Source: Bdellovibrio sp. BCCA | Lineage (GTDB): Bacteria > Bdellovibrionota > Bdellovibrionia > Bdellovibrionales > Bdellovibrionaceae | Length of the DNA: 64,000 nucleotides | Reading direction: 5' to 3' | NCBI RefSeq assembly: GCF_037996825.1 | Contig: NZ_JBBNAC010000001.1 | Span: 3,038,001 to 3,102,000, forward strand | In this document: positions 2,117-36,652 of the stretch, piece after piece | Numbering within the stretch: position 1 is the stretch's first letter | How the letters are laid out: every line of letters starts with the position of its first letter | Position numbers and translations under genes: made by a program | The notes under the pieces: model-generated | Told to the model about the DNA's origin: nothing | Database searches by the model: none | Seen by the model: the letters and a program-made list of their open reading frames with translations, nothing else

Positions 2117-3874
2117 ATGACTAACGGAACGTCGCTGAATTTCCTCACAATGATTATCCTTTCCTTCGCTTTATCTGCCTGCTCCATCAACGCAGAAATG
2201 TTCGGAGGATCTAAAAATCTCAACTCTGAATCGCCCGGTAAGACCACTCTCAAAGGCCAATTCCCTTTAGGCGATCCTGCCTTTACAGGTGAATTTAAAA
2301 ACTACATCACAGCGGGCCCTGCGGGTCGCTTCGTCTTTGTTTCTTTTAGCGATGAAATTTACGTCACGACAGATGCCGGAGTTCTTCTCAAAAGATTCAC
2401 TCCTACGGGTGTATCACAAATTACCGGACTCACAGTTGATAGCAACAGCATCATCTATATTACCGGCTCCTATGATCCGAATCCCAACGACACACGCTTT
2501 GTTAGAAAATTCGATATGAATGGTAATTTTCTTGGCGAAGTGATCACGTACACAGACGAAGGCGGCGGAGCCGTGGCATTCCCTGAAAATCCTTATGTTG
2601 CGGCTGATGGCTCTATCTATATTTCCGCATTCAGCCAGATTCGTAAATACAATGCTGCCGGAGTGCTACAAACGACGTATGGTTCTATTCAAGGATCTAA
2701 TGACGGAGAAATCAATGGCACACATTCCTTTTTTGTAGAAACGGATGGAACCGTTTATGTCGTAGACGTATGGACAAACCGTCTGCAAAAGTTTAACGCG
2801 AATGGCTCTTTTAATTCCAAATTCACTTGGCCCAGGAATATTGCCAATGGAATCGTCACTGGTCTCATGCGTGAAGCTGACGGAAGTTTTGTATTGACGG
2901 AGCGGATGGGTACTGAGGGACGGTTCACCGCCTTTGACGGAAGTGGCACTCCGAAATGGTCACGCGACGGAACAGAACGAGGATCAGCCCCGTACGATAG
3001 CAATACTATGTCCGTCACCAGGTACAACGGCTTTTACTATCTTGCATATCGCGACAGTTTAGTTCTTTACAACGCCGCCGACGGAGCTTTTCATAAAGAG
3101 TATAAAAAGCTGATTTCAAATCCTTTCAGTGTCACGCGGTCTCAGGATGGTTTTTTCTTTGTAAGTTCCGGCAATGGCATTCATAAGTTCAATGCCAAAG
3201 GTGAATGGCAAACGACATTTGGAAATACGTCAGGTTCCTACTACACAGCGATTGCTATTTCTAGCGACAACACCATCTACGTGACTGACTTCATGAACGG
3301 CGGCAAAGTTTTTAAATTTGATTTCAATGGAAATGCTCAGGGCTTTCTGGCTGTACCCTCGGCCACCACACCTTATGGTCTTTCCATTGATAAAGACGAC
3401 ACTCTTTTTATCGCCGACGCAGGCGGAGGAGGATTGATCAAACTTCCTCTTTCAACGGGAGTTCCCACTTCATTTGCGGCAGGACAATACACCATTCCTA
3501 TTGGGGTTTCCTGTCAACCTGACGGAAGTATTTTAATCATGGATTTTAACGGCGCAACTTCGATTGGAAAACGTCTCAATGCAAGTGGCACCGTGATTGA
3601 CACCTTTGGTGATGCAGGACCTGGAACTATTAGCGGAACGGCATTGGGAGTCACTGCCGACCCAAATACAGGGCGCATTTATGTTGCCAACGCCACAGGA
3701 AATAAAATCTTAGTTTATGAAAGTAACGGCGACTACATTTCTGAATTCACAAATGTAGACTTCCGCCAGCCCTTCGGAATCTACGCTGACAGCAACGGCG
3801 ACATCTTCGTCGCCGATCAGTTTAATAACAATGTAAAGAAATTTAAATCCGATGGAACAATGTCGCTCGAATAA
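2117..3874 (+). CDS. NHL/beta-propeller repeat lipoprotein
   Basis: The protein has 585 residues. A lipoprotein signal ends in the lipobox LSAC at about residue 22. The rest is a series of roughly 45-residue beta-propeller blades with the recurring pattern D-x-x-G-x-I/F-Y/F-V-A/S-D followed by V-x-K-F. A clear example is the last one, DSNGDIFVADQFNNNVKKF. NHL propellers usually bind proteins, glycans or RNA rather than catalyse. A lipidated propeller would sit on the outer membrane or the periplasmic face. A second gene of the same kind lies at 24455. The gene ends flush against the convergent permease gene. The start could also be ATG 2113 in another frame, but only 2117 is in frame. Confidence 0.8.
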   Translation: MTNGTSLNFLTMIILSFALSACSINAEMFGGSKNLNSESPGKTTLKGQFPLGDPAFTGEFKNYITAGPAGRFVFVSFSDEIYVTTDAGVLLKRFTPTGVSQITGLTVDSNSIIYITGSYDPNPNDTRFVRKFDMNGNFLGEVITYTDEGGGAVAFPENPYVAADGSIYISAFSQIRKYNAAGVLQTTYGSIQGSNDGEINGTHSFFVETDGTVYVVDVWTNRLQKFNANGSFNSKFTWPRNIANGIVTGLMREADGSFVLTERMGTEGRFTAFDGSGTPKWSRDGTERGSAPYDSNTMSVTRYNGFYYLAYRDSLVLYNAADGAFHKEYKKLISNPFSVTRSQDGFFFVSSGNGIHKFNAKGEWQTTFGNTSGSYYTAIAISSDNTIYVTDFMNGGKVFKFDFNGNAQGFLAVPSATTPYGLSIDKDDTLFIADAGGGGLIKLPLSTGVPTSFAAGQYTIPIGVSCQPDGSILIMDFNGATSIGKRLNASGTVIDTFGDAGPGTISGTALGVTADPNTGRIYVANATGNKILVYESNGDYISEFTNVDFRQPFGIYADSNGDIFVADQFNNNVKKFKSDGTMSLE

Positions 3875-5083
3875 CTAAGTCGAGCGCAGAAGTTCCGGAA
3901 TAGATTTTTTCAAAAGTTTGATTGTTGGATACAAACTCGCTAGCACCGTCGCGATCATAGGTAACAACAAGGCTTGAGTGTAGTGGCTTGGCATAATATC
4001 CAAGAACACGACAAACTGCCGCGTGATTCCCGGAGCTGGTGGCATCGGAATACCTTTCACCAGCAAGGTTTTATCGATCAAAACCGCAAGACAAATTCCC
4101 AAGAAGCCACCCAAAATTCCCAAAAGACTGTTTTCAACCAAAAGAATTCTAAAAAGACGGCTGCGTTTTTCACCGTTAGCTCGCAAAGCCCCCATCTCTC
4201 CCGCTCTTTCAAGAAGTCCCACAGAGATCACATTAAAGATTCCCATCGCAACGATCACGAGGATGATAGAACGAATGAAAGTGAATTGCGCATGCAGAAA
4301 ATCCACTGAGTTTTGATAATAGTTTTTATCAAGAATTTCAAAACGAATCGGATCTAGCTGAGGATTGGCCGTGCGAATTTCCTTTTCGGCTTTCTCCCAA
4401 ACTCCAACGCCTTTTGTTGCTAAAGAGAACATCTCAATACGGTTTGTATCTAAGAGTTGTTGCGCCTGTTTTAAATCCACACGATAGAAAGAGTCATCAA
4501 TCACTTTCTTTCCGGTAAAGAAAATCCCGGCCACAGTGAGATCCGCTCCGTTCAATTGCCCCTTCACTGTTTGTGTTAGCAACGTCACGGTGTCGCCAAC
4601 CTTCGCATCAATACTTTCTGCCAAACCTTTACCTAAAATAATCTGATCAGGATGTTGCAGATCGGTTCCCGCGATAAAGTTCATTGAAGTAAAGAACGTG
4701 TTTTCACGCTCAGGGATCACACCCTCCCCTTTACCACCCAGAGTGATGCCACCTTTAACGATGAAAGAATAAAAGCTCACGCGCGGGAAAACTTGCACGA
4801 CTTCGGAAGAAGAACGTATTTGTTCTTCCACGGTTTCAGGATTTTCAAACCAAAGTTTCCAAGGTTGCTCGTGCACCTTACCGTAGTAATTCGGTGGAAA
4901 CACTTGGCCGTGTCCATAATAACCGTGAATCACACCTTCACGATATTGATTCATAACTCCGGTATTAAATCCCTGATAAATCAAAAGACCAGCAGCTCCT
5001 AAAGCCACCGTGCAAAGACTTGCGAGCGTTCTGCGAGGATTTCTAAAAAGATTGCGCCACGCGATTTTGATAAGTTCCAACAT
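3875..5083 (-). CDS. ABC transporter permease, FtsX/LolC/MacB type
   Basis: The protein has 402 residues. The N-terminal membrane segment follows the typical IAWRNLFRNPRRT motif. A large periplasmic MacB-type core comes next (about residues 45-260), then three C-terminal helices with the FtsX-domain pattern GIFNVISVGLLERAGEMGALRANGEKRSR. That reads as type VII ABC architecture: the permease couples ATP use to mechanical work on periplasmic substrates such as lipoproteins or peptides. Its ATG overlaps the TAA of the upstream ATPase gene by one base (TAATG), so the two are translationally coupled. The substrate is not deducible. Confidence 0.88.
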   Translation of the reverse strand: MLELIKIAWRNLFRNPRRTLASLCTVALGAAGLLIYQGFNTGVMNQYREGVIHGYYGHGQVFPPNYYGKVHEQPWKLWFENPETVEEQIRSSSEVVQVFPRVSFYSFIVKGGITLGGKGEGVIPERENTFFTSMNFIAGTDLQHPDQIILGKGLAESIDAKVGDTVTLLTQTVKGQLNGADLTVAGIFFTGKKVIDDSFYRVDLKQAQQLLDTNRIEMFSLATKGVGVWEKAEKEIRTANPQLDPIRFEILDKNYYQNSVDFLHAQFTFIRSIILVIVAMGIFNVISVGLLERAGEMGALRANGEKRSRLFRILLVENSLLGILGGFLGICLAVLIDKTLLVKGIPMPPAPGITRQFVVFLDIMPSHYTQALLLPMIATVLASLYPTIKLLKKSIPELLRST

Positions 5084-5763
5084 TACGCTCTCCCCTCGAT
5101 TTGTCCGTCTTTCATGCGATAAACGGATTTTGCAAAACTGACCAGATGAGAATCGTGGGTCGAAAAAATAAAGCTGGTGTTTTCAGCTTTCTGCAATTCT
5201 TTAAAAGCATTAATGGTTTTCTCAGCCGTGACAGAATCCAAATTCGCCGTTGGTTCGTCCGCCAAAACCACTTCGGGTTTTTTTGCAATCGCACGGGCAA
5301 TTGCTACACGCTGACGTTGACCACCGGATAATTCCAAAGGTTTTTTCTTCGCATGATCTGCAAGACCTAAAAGATCCAAAGTCTCCATCGCCGTTTTTTG
5401 CGCGTTTGCGTGCGTGTACCCTAAAGAAGGCAAAAAGTACGACGTATTTTCTAAAACCGTCAAAGTCGGAATCAAATAAAAGGCCTGAAAGATAAATCCG
5501 ACTTTATGCAAACGAACTTGTTCTTTTTCATTTTCATTTAAGTGAGTGACGTCTTCGCCGGAAAATTCGATATGACCGCTGGAAGGAGTATCAATCAATC
5601 CTAAAAGATTTAAAAGAGTTGTCTTTCCAGTTCCGGAAGGACCGACGATGCAAGTGAAGCAGCCTTTTTCTAACTCAAGATCAATGCCTTTAAGAACGGG
5701 AACTTGTTGTTTATTCCAAAGATAAGAATATTCAAGCCCCTTCAGACGATACAAAACGCTCAT
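5083..5763 (-). CDS. ABC transporter ATP-binding protein, LolD/MacB type
   Basis: The protein has 226 residues. Walker A is GPSGTGKTTLLN, the signature is LSGGQRQRVAIARA, Walker B is VVLADEPTANLDS and the H-loop is STHDSHLV. This matches LolD/MacB/FtsE-type ATPases that partner an FtsX-like permease, which is the next gene. The ATG at 5763 is preferred over a GTG nine bases upstream because AAGGAG lies eight bases before it. The pair would form a type VII exporter or lipoprotein-handling complex at the inner membrane. Confidence 0.92.
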   Translation of the reverse strand: MSVLYRLKGLEYSYLWNKQQVPVLKGIDLELEKGCFTCIVGPSGTGKTTLLNLLGLIDTPSSGHIEFSGEDVTHLNENEKEQVRLHKVGFIFQAFYLIPTLTVLENTSYFLPSLGYTHANAQKTAMETLDLLGLADHAKKKPLELSGGQRQRVAIARAIAKKPEVVLADEPTANLDSVTAEKTINAFKELQKAENTSFIFSTHDSHLVSFAKSVYRMKDGQIEGRA

Positions 5764-5873
5764 GCTGGTCACTCCTTGAAGCTCAGCCAGGATATCTTAA
5801 TTTTGGTTTATTTTTGCGCACATTCTCGTCTGAAAGACTTTTGTCCAGGGGCTCAGACGGCCCCATTTGGACA

Positions 5874-30865: not shown

Positions 30866-31202
30866 TGAATATCTTTCCGCAAATCCTTTGCTGCCGTGAA
30901 TTTTAGACTATCAAGATCCGAACAAACTTTGAAATGGTGTCCGCAAAACAAGACCAAAGTCGTTCGAAAATAAGAGTTTATAAACAGAAACTGCATTAAA
31001 ACTTATTCATTTTCTTGATCCAGAAAAATTACGAAGTCCTCGGCCTGTCATTTTATTTTCAATTATTTTTTATTTTAGACTCCAAATCACTCGTTTGGCC
31101 GATGAAGACTCATAAATACCGCTCCGACAATTGCACCATTATAACGAATGTATCACGAACACAGGTTCGATAAGAGATACATCAATAAGGAGCGTTAACA
31201 TT
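30866..31202. other. Divergent intergenic region between ftsQ and the chemoreceptor gene
   Basis: 337 bp with no open frame or RNA gene seen. It must hold the promoters of ftsQAZ-lpxH (minus) and of the chemoreceptor (plus). GCCGATGA at 31098-31105 resembles a flagellar sigma-28 -10 element, but no well-spaced -35 TAAA is present. The stretch around 31050-31080 is very T-rich. Confidence 0.5.
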
Positions 31203-32870
31203 ATGAAGTTCAACACGAAAGTTATGGCGAGCATTGTTTTCGCCTGTGTTATTTGTACCGCAGCCGCAGTCTTTGTCTCTTCTGCACGTATCTCTGGGCA
31301 AGGCGAACAACAACTCATTGAAAAATCAAGAGCCATTCTTTCTCGTTTGGAAGCTGTTCGTTCTTACATAGCTTCCCAAGGTGGCCTCGAAGCCAGCATT
31401 GAAAAAGCAACAACAACACATCCTGACGGAAATCTCCCCAAAGAAGCGAAGCTCACTATCTTAAAACAAGTCCCTATCTTTGCCGCGATGAAAGTGGGCG
31501 CAGAGGGCGCAAAGGAAGAAGGCTACACTTTCCGCATCTTCTCTGACGAGCCACGCAACCCTAACAATCGCGCGACAGCCCAAGAATTAGAAATTCTTAA
31601 AAAGTTTGAAGCCGATCCAAAACTGCAAGAGCAAATGGTGTCCACAGACACTGAAACAATTGTGTATCGTCCGGTCCGTCTAACGGCCTCGCAAGGTTGC
31701 TTTAGTTGCCATGGTGATCCAGCGACGTCTCCTTGGAAGAATGGCAAAGACATTCTAGGTTATCCGATGGAAAATTGGTCTGATGGAAAACTGCACGGCG
31801 GTTTTGCCGTGATCTCTAGCAAAGCAGAAGTAAAAGCCGCAGCCATGAATGCCACTTGGTACATTATCGGTTGGTCCACAGGTCTTTCATTCATCGCTTT
31901 ATTTCTAGCGTTTATGTTCTTGAGTAAACCAATGAGAGCTCTTTCTGGTATTGCAGAAAAGCTGCAAGACACTGGAACTGGCGTTGCACACGCAAGTGTC
32001 GAGATCACGAAATCATCTCAAGATCTTAATAATGCCGCAGCTACTGCCGCTGCCTCAATTCAACAAACGACTTCAGCAACAGAAGAAATGTCGAGCATGA
32101 TTAAGCTCAATGCTGAACACACGAACGAAGCAAGAAACCTTGCAGAACGCGCCCAAGGAAAAGCCCGCACAGGCAAAGAGGAAGTTGAGAAACTGATTCT
32201 TTCCATGGACGAAATCGCAAAAAGTTCTAAAAAAATCGAAGAAATCATCACCGTTATCGACGATATCGCCTTTCAAACAAATCTTTTGGCTTTAAATGCT
32301 GCAGTTGAAGCGGCTCGCGCCGGAGAACAAGGCAAAGGATTCGCGGTTGTTGCCGAAGCCGTCCGCGCTTTGGCGCAACGAAGTGCAACCTCAGCCAAAG
32401 AAATTTCGGGTCTTATCAAAGACAGCGTAGATAAAATTGAAAATGGCCATGAAGTTGTGCAAGCAAGCGGCGCGATGCTTAATGAAATCGTTCAGCAAAT
32501 CGAAAAACTGACAGCGTTGAATATCGAAATTTCAACGGCAAGCTCCGAGCAAGCTCAAGGTGTTAATTCGATCAATATGTCGATCAATGAATTAGATCGC
32601 GTGACACAAAACAATGCTTCGGCTGCTGGCGAATGTGCTTCGAATGCGGAAGTTCTTTCAGAGCGCTCACAACAAATGCACTCGATGGTTCAAGATTTGA
32701 TTTTGATTGTTGAAGGCAAACGCAGTGACAACAACGAAGTCGCCACAAAAACAGCTACCAAAATGACGCCGAAGACGAAAACCCCTCCACCTTCAATTCC
32801 GAAAGTGCAGGCGCAAAACCGTCCTTCGACAAATCATGAAGACCTCTTACCACTGAATGATGCATCGTAA
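31203..32870 (+). CDS. Methyl-accepting chemotaxis protein with c-type haem sensor domain
   Basis: The protein has 555 residues. Membrane helix 1 (about residues 8-26) is followed by a periplasmic sensor of the DUF3365/Tll0287 type (about 30-210), with the haem motif C166-F-S-C169-H170. Helix 2 is at about 219-239. The C-terminal receptor signalling domain has the hairpin signature [20 protein letters not shown]. There is no C-terminal NWETF pentapeptide. The periplasmic c-haem suggests redox or gas (O2/NO/CO) sensing. AGGAG lies ten bases before the ATG. An intrinsic terminator follows. Confidence 0.92.
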
Positions 32871-34837: not shown

Positions 34838-36652
34838 ATGATCAGACTCATGGCTTCGATTTTAGGACTTCTCATTTTTACAGCTCTTTCCGCTGGGGCT
34901 GCGCCGAAGCGCATTTGCACGATGACTTTAAACTCCAGTGATGAAAAAGAAGTTCTTAAAAATATGTATGGTGGTCAGGATGTAGAGATCACGGAACTTG
35001 TTCCAGAGAACAAGGATCCTTCATGGCTCGCTCGCGCTTGCCAGTCTGGAATTCAATGTGACGTCCTGCTTGTCTCCGGTCATTTTGGTGGTGTGTTTTT
35101 TGGTGAAGGCGTTAGCACCACTTTGGATTTAAAAGAAATTGAGAAATTGAGCTGCGAAAATTCTTGTCCAGGAATTTTAAGTCATCCTAAAGATGTTTTT
35201 CTTATGGGCTGCAACACTCTGTCTACCAAAGCTCCAGACAAAAGATCTATCGAAGAATACGTCGAAGTTCTTATCCACAATGGTTTCCCCCGTGACCTCG
35301 CCGAGCGCGTGGCTTTTGCTCGATACTCGGAATATGGAATGAGCATCAGTCAGATTTTTTCTTCCGCCTTTCAAGGTGTAGAAAGACTGCATGGCTTTTC
35401 AAGCACGGGCCCGTTGGGCAAAGTCGCTGCTCCCCTGCTTCGCCAATCGTTAAAGAACACAAGCAAAGATGTGTTTTTTAATAAAGGCCCCGATACGAAT
35501 CGATTGAAACAAGTTTTTGCTGGAACAAGTTACCGCATGGTTCAGCCAGCTAAAGATGTTGATCCCAACTATCGCGCTTTAACTTGTAAGACGTATTCAC
35601 AAAATCAGGATCAAAACAAAGAAGCCATCGTCTTTTTATCCAAGAAAACAAATTTAAAAAAATATTACGAGCCTTTATTAGAAGCGACCAAAAACCCTTC
35701 ATTTCTTCACCTGCTTCAGGAAGCTGTCACAACATCAACCGAAGCTCGACAAAATTTTCAAAGCTTCTTCGAAGAAATTGGCGTGGCTAAATCTTTGCCG
35801 CTAAAAATGAAATTTCAGTTTTTAGATTTACAAGCAAGCCTTGGGCTTATTCCGTCGGTCGTGAAACAAGACCAACAAGAAAGACTTCTGCGTCAAAGGC
35901 TTGCTTCGGGTCTAAACTTCATAGTGACGGATCAATTTTGTGCGATGAAAGATCTTCTGCAAAACACGGAACTTCATGGCGCTTGGATTCGTGCCTCTGC
36001 AGAAGGAAATCCGTTTCTTCCACGACTCAGTCAATGTTTTGGAAGTTACGATGAAGACATAGAAAACGTTCTAAAGTCTATGACTGCAAGTCAGGACTCA
36101 TCATTGCGTCGTGAAGCTATTCGCGCTTTATCTTCACGTATCAGCTGGAATGACAAAATCACAATCGCCAATATGTCAGCTTCATGGCCCCGCCGGGATC
36201 GCATAGATATGGCTTACTTCTTAAAGCTACCCCTTTCTTCGGAAAGATTGAGCCCTCGGGTACAGACATGTTTGTACGAAGCTAAACAGAAATCGACAGC
36301 AGAAGGTCGCGATGGATACCGTTGGTATTGCCACAATGAATTTGAAACGGAGATTGATTCGCCCTTAAAATGCCATCAGATCGCGCGCGAATTTGAAACG
36401 CAAAGTGTAACTGGAATGGATTGGCAGTGTTTGACCCGCTTTACTGGCGAAATTCATTTAGGGGCATGCCTTGAAGCCGCCGATAGAAATATCGATCCTG
36501 AAAACTCCGATGATGTTCGGTGGTATTGTTGGAGTAAGCTTGCAAATCAAAGCCAGCTCAGTCGCTCTGAATGTCTGGCTCTTGCTTCTTCGATGAAAAT
36601 TCAAGGCAATAGATTTAAGGCCAACTGGAACTGCATGAACAGAATCCAGTAG
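34838..36652 (+). CDS. Secreted protein with caspase/CHAT-like His-Cys signature and Cys-rich repeats
   Basis: The protein has 604 residues. A signal peptide spans about residues 1-21. Residues 73-130 show CDVLLVSGHFGG (His82) and later DVFLMGCNTLS (Cys125), separated by about 43 residues including DLKEIEKLS. Hydrophobic strand-His-Gly and strand-Gly/Ala-Cys-Asn-Thr is the active-site arrangement of clan CD peptidases such as CHAT and caspases. Residues 440-470 resemble HEAT-like helices. Residues 478-599 contain four 32-35 residue repeats, each C-x(18-19)-C with a Trp two before the second Cys, suggesting disulfides. Catalysis is not proven. A weak TACAAT box lies at 34795-34800. Confidence 0.7.
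   Translation: MIRLMASILGLLIFTALSAGAAPKRICTMTLNSSDEKEVLKNMYGGQDVEITELVPENKDPSWLARACQSGIQCDVLLVSGHFGGVFFGEGVSTTLDLKEIEKLSCENSCPGILSHPKDVFLMGCNTLSTKAPDKRSIEEYVEVLIHNGFPRDLAERVAFARYSEYGMSISQIFSSAFQGVERLHGFSSTGPLGKVAAPLLRQSLKNTSKDVFFNKGPDTNRLKQVFAGTSYRMVQPAKDVDPNYRALTCKTYSQNQDQNKEAIVFLSKKTNLKKYYEPLLEATKNPSFLHLLQEAVTTSTEARQNFQSFFEEIGVAKSLPLKMKFQFLDLQASLGLIPSVVKQDQQERLLRQRLASGLNFIVTDQFCAMKDLLQNTELHGAWIRASAEGNPFLPRLSQCFGSYDEDIENVLKSMTASQDSSLRREAIRALSSRISWNDKITIANMSASWPRRDRIDMAYFLKLPLSSERLSPRVQTCLYEAKQKSTAEGRDGYRWYCHNEFETEIDSPLKCHQIAREFETQSVTGMDWQCLTRFTGEIHLGACLEAADRNIDPENSDDVRWYCWSKLANQSQLSRSECLALASSMKIQGNRFKANWNCMNRIQ

Follow-up and report, generated by a model that had tools for sequence, protein, structure and literature searches.

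A predicted exported caspase-type protein with its own alpha-solenoid in Bdellovibrio

Bacterial caspase-type proteases have been studied mainly as intracellular proteins, in defence, CRISPR and cell death. One gene in the 64,000-nucleotide stretch of Bdellovibrio sp. BCCA DNA that we analysed (the window) raises the question of whether such an enzyme might also act outside the cytoplasm, as a first-pass annotation described its product as a secreted caspase- or CHAT-like candidate. Literature queries on this gene, which used guessed Bd numbers, found nothing, and promoter and terminator scans gave signals at chance level only. We think it likely that the product is an exported, probably periplasmic, clan CD cysteine peptidase whose family is absent from the databases searched. 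Its parts are listed in Table 1.

Table 1. The gene and the predicted features of its product, in window coordinates
Feature	Position	Strand	Basis
Whole gene, 604 aa, ATG start	34838..36652	+	ORF call
Signal-peptide-like segment, residues 1-22	34838..34903	+	Sequence; homologue hydropathy
Caspase-like catalytic domain, residues 23-240	34904..35557	+	AlphaFold2 models, structural matches, conservation
Cys68, predicted disulfide partner of Cys110	35039..35041	+	Joint loss across homologues
His82, predicted catalytic histidine	35081..35083	+	Present in 150/151 homologues
Cys110, predicted disulfide partner of Cys68	35165..35167	+	Joint loss across homologues
Cys125, predicted catalytic nucleophile	35210..35212	+	Present in 152/152 homologues
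Alpha-solenoid, residues 241-470, probable recognition/regulatory part	35558..36247	+	All-helical in model; HEAT_2 in homologues
C-terminal Cys/Trp-rich helical repeats, residues 471-604	36248..36649	+	Module comparison

Predicted fold and family searches

Because a Foldseek search with the AlphaFold2 model of the whole protein (pLDDT 93.2, pTM 0.88) gave mainly unrelated repeat proteins, the catalytic domain was modelled separately (residues 21-244; pLDDT 93.7, pTM 0.90). For this domain, Foldseek alone placed caspase-9, Craspase and CED-3 on top. VIA-align, which was run on the best 1000 Foldseek chains and in which a Z below 8 can reflect a common arrangement, gave SAVED-CHAT (8tl0) as the top match (Z 12.5, 162 residues, 3.2 Å), followed by legumain (Z 10.9), iotapain (Z 10.5), caspases (about 9-10), clostripain (9.1) and gingipain R, scores that lie above this mark. 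CHAT also reached Z 12.1 in a separate structural comparison. The 50 VIA-align matches listed are all caspase-type enzymes except Tce1, a T6SS effector of unchecked class; separase, though expected as a relative, is not among the structural matches listed.

The strand-helix order, the models and the Z scores point to the caspase-hemoglobinase alpha/beta fold, and model and alignment together place a conserved His after strand 3 and a conserved Cys after strand 4, the arrangement of clan CD. Given these predicted structures, a caspase-type fold and membership in clan CD are very probable, in line with the annotation, and a non-caspase fold was not seen. It is important to emphasize that common descent with clan CD rests on fold and motif, and that a fold match by itself says nothing on function.

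Pfam, NCBIfam and PADLOC scans assigned no family to the protein, PADLOC matching no defence family, and the Pfam and NCBIfam scans of the domain were likewise empty; its description as a protein of no recognised family therefore holds. The HMM check that had been suggested for CHAT (PF12770) and Peptidase_C14 (PF00656) matched neither: PF12770 had no match in the window protein or the window genome and is absent from the families listed for 60 homologues. The Peptidase C11 model (PF03415) also had no match in the window protein, and none in the window genome. With phmmer, the best PDB match is a caspase-3, over residues 74-126 and with Cys125 on the caspase cysteine, but at E 0.017 it is suggestive only. 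A sequence search of the PDB with a 34-sequence profile of the domain picked up no caspase, and hhalign gave no significant result against CHAT (one sequence), C14 (one) or C11 (four), for which the profiles are thin. By predicted fold and dyad, then, the protein is of the caspase-type clan and a member of no named family among those tested; the family is an unnamed one of clan CD, unrecognised in the databases searched, and not a CHAT member by HMM. Separately, a weak match to Bromo_TP_like and one to the superantigen-like SSL8 (E 0.0017, residues 203-317; PDB 3r2t, E 0.14) fall in the linker/solenoid region and were rejected as chance.

A divergent CHAT protein would account for the best structural Z scores, for the similarity of GCNT to CHAT motifs and for a helical scaffold on the same chain. 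However, apart from the missing PF12770 match, the solenoid lies at the opposite side and is HEAT-like, and the protein looks exported, so that we consider this reading quite improbable.

The His82-Cys125 dyad

As the annotation had read them, and as ORF and model confirm, His82 lies in VLLVSGHFGG right after modelled strand 76-80, Cys125 lies in VFLMGCNT right after modelled strand 119-123, and 43 residues separate the two (39-49 across homologues). In an alignment of 152 sequences, in which some genes are represented twice, once from each of two collections, Gly124, Cys125 and Thr127 are each unchanged throughout, and His82 is kept in 150 of the 151 sequences with a residue there, the sole exception being a natural Glu in the divergent homologue L123. 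Asn32, Glu36, Asp75 and Ser80 are near-invariant as well. The species-genome scan was keyed on exact short His/Cys motifs and is therefore biased to conserved residues and misses distant lineages; however, a set of 44 rows from a full-length similarity search is free of this motif bias, and both members of the dyad are present in every row, L044 and L045 among them despite their strong divergence. His82 and Cys125 are also among the 19 invariant columns of a catalytic-domain alignment (68 sequences, mean column identity 39%), and mean pairwise identity among nine orthologues is 81% for residues 23-205 versus 57% for the solenoid. The conservation of the dyad exceeds chance.

This conservation bears on the annotation's alternative of a dead relative, which here would be an exported pseudo-protease or sensor that binds partners or peptides without cutting and uses the solenoid as a scaffold. 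Dead orthocaspases are documented, with a changed dyad in 862 of about 11,100 bacterial sequences (PMC6426788), and the transmembrane anti-sigma factor DdvA is a fair structural match (Z 8.8). The lost His of L123 suggests that inactive forms may occur within the family itself. However, pseudo-forms usually lose the dyad, which here persists in lineages that have diverged widely and in both members of the tandem Burkholderiales copies. Because the dyad is conserved, the window protein is unlikely to be a dead relative; sequence and model argue that it is probably an active protease. Of the annotated "secreted cysteine peptidase", the exported-looking N-terminus, the clan CD fold and the conserved dyad stand, and peptidase activity itself is what we infer from them.

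Export and the C-terminal half

The N-terminus, MIRLMASILGLLIFTALSAGAA followed by PKR, looks by eye like the signal peptide that had been annotated, with a brief run of basic and hydrophobic residues and a probable cleavage near the junction of AGAA and PK. A simple hydropathy rule agrees, detecting a hydrophobic N-terminal segment in 118 of 124 homologue rows, in which the same gene from two collections is sometimes counted twice. Cys68 and Cys110 are jointly missing in 8 sequences of the 152-sequence alignment, whereas no complete row lacks only one of them, which suggests that they form a disulfide. The double losses map to at least three tree positions: L044/L045, a Piscinibacter/Rhodoferax group within one tandem copy, and the L114 copy. 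In the L017/L049-L053/L056 group, Cys106 is missing while the others are kept. Such a disulfide fits an oxidising compartment, i.e., one outside the cytoplasm, and the protein is probably exported to the periplasm. Export had been thought unusual for such an enzyme. However, the C11 enzyme iotapain is secreted. A signal peptide or N-terminal helix is also common among prokaryotic metacaspases and caspase homologues (PMC3501461), which speaks against that view.

Residues 241-604 are almost entirely helix in the AlphaFold2 model. For the window protein no repeat family gave a match; among 60 full-length homologues, HEAT_2 matches 15, HEAT matches 10 and a TPR model weakly matches one. The annotation remarked on the lack of a partner TPR protein, but the scaffold is built in: the C-terminal half of the protein is itself an alpha-solenoid, which in many homologues is HEAT-like, and being part of the enzyme it answers that remark. 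The last 130 residues form a Cys/Trp-rich repeat that also occurs in separate small exported-looking proteins of several Bdellovibrio genomes (149-165 aa; L135-L139, L141 and L142). Such small proteins are present in genomes without the caspase-like gene too.

We propose that the protein would be exported, probably to the periplasm, and that its N-terminal domain would cut selected proteins, Cys125 serving as the nucleophile and His82 as the base. The solenoid that follows on the same chain might hold the substrate or gate the active site, as in separase and TPR-CHAT; that cleavage is guided or gated in this way is an analogy, which we put forward tentatively.

Distribution and possible roles

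Scanning 84,980 species genomes yielded 118 relatives, and the 79 loci kept come from Bdellovibrionota and from Betaproteobacteria, chiefly Burkholderiales, plus a few MAGs with odd labels. Searches of plasmids (with a Ramlibacter copy as query) and of viral contigs found no homologue. The window protein has matches in 42 of 100 related genomes, some to the C-terminal module alone, and the N-terminal domain profile matches about a quarter of the sampled Bdellovibrionota genomes (96 of 369). Two or three tandem copies are found at 27 of the 79 loci (among L087-L124, e.g., L118), which are Betaproteobacterial, with one MAG labelled Alphaproteobacteria. These copies fall mostly in two tree groups, and because each group contains the same genera, the tandem pair is, on this phylogeny, an old duplication. 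In this tree, a quick one with SH-aLRT support only, a midpoint root and long branches, the Betaproteobacterial rows cluster together with full support inside the Bdellovibrionota rows; one transfer between the two phyla is possible, and we suggest it tentatively.

Two loci have neighbouring features of their own. At 2939-4435 (minus strand) and about 4737-5816 (plus strand) of L045 (genome G067), a distant family member and a C11 clostripain-type gene adjoin in divergent orientation, so that two clan CD genes lie side by side. L034 (2983-4605, plus strand) is a second family member within one genome, with 43% identity across the N-terminal domain; small exported-looking ORFs surround it, and a putative regulator ORF lies upstream.

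A role in predation, in which the enzyme is released into prey and degrades prey proteins, would suit the export-like signal, the occurrence in 96 Bdellovibrionota genomes and in 17 of the 24 genomes of the genus (the window genome included), and the site beside murC. This gene is convergent with the caspase-like gene, their ends separated by 5 bases, and the arrangement is common to B. bacteriovorus relatives. However, the family is missing from 7 of the 24 genus genomes, and Burkholderiales (Ramlibacter, Piscinibacter) carry it, often as tandem pairs, which weakens the annotated link to a predator. Apart from local synteny and tandem copies the family gene has no conserved neighbours, and no predation-linked ones were found. 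We regard this role as unlikely. Elsewhere in the window, beside the cell-division genes, the product of 31131-32870 (plus strand) resembles a chemoreceptor and carries, in its sensor part, the haem-binding motif CFSCH (CxxCH); upstream of its family gene, the relative L046 matches this protein twice.

The exported peptidase, if real, would add regulated caspase-type proteolysis to the bacterial envelope. What stands out is the combination, in one family shared by predators and Burkholderiales, of an export-like signal, an own solenoid and near-invariant catalytic residues. It is a speculative step further, and one we doubt, to see here an undescribed exported caspase-solenoid protease family that serves as an envelope proteolytic switch, with an old two-subunit pair in Burkholderiales and use by some predators.

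Among known systems, CHAT proteins (SAVED-CHAT 8tl0, TPR-CHAT/Csx29) are alike in the top structural match and in the His-then-Cys order, and TPR-CHAT has, as the window protein does, a helical-repeat scaffold within one chain. In contrast to CHAT, the window protein looks exported and lacks a PF12770 match, and in place of TPR association it carries its own C-terminal, HEAT-like solenoid. Clostripain and iotapain (C11, PF03415) are alike in fold and in being secreted, and legumain (C13) and caspases (C14A) in fold and catalytic order. The window protein differs from the former in lacking an Asp two before the Cys, which most C11 sequences aligned here have, and from the latter in having no Pfam match and no caspase QACRG; it differs from all of these in its solenoid. 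Orthocaspases (C14B) and metacaspases also have an Asp two before the catalytic Cys, e.g., Asp211 of TbMC2, in a basic P1 pocket (PMC6426788). In the window family this position (residue 123) is occupied by Phe in 117 sequences and by Met in 31, together 148 of 152, the rest being Gln (2), Leu (1) and Tyr (1), and because it is not acidic, no Arg/Lys preference is expected by that route. A NACHT-HEAT_PBS-metacaspase of cytoplasmic type is known from Trichodesmium (PMC3501461). Finally, separase (C50) joins a caspase-like domain and an alpha-solenoid in one chain, and TPR-CHAT, which resembles it, is gated by its own complex (PMC9729208). In separase the solenoid precedes a C-terminal protease domain, whereas the window protein has the reverse order, is bacterial and looks exported.
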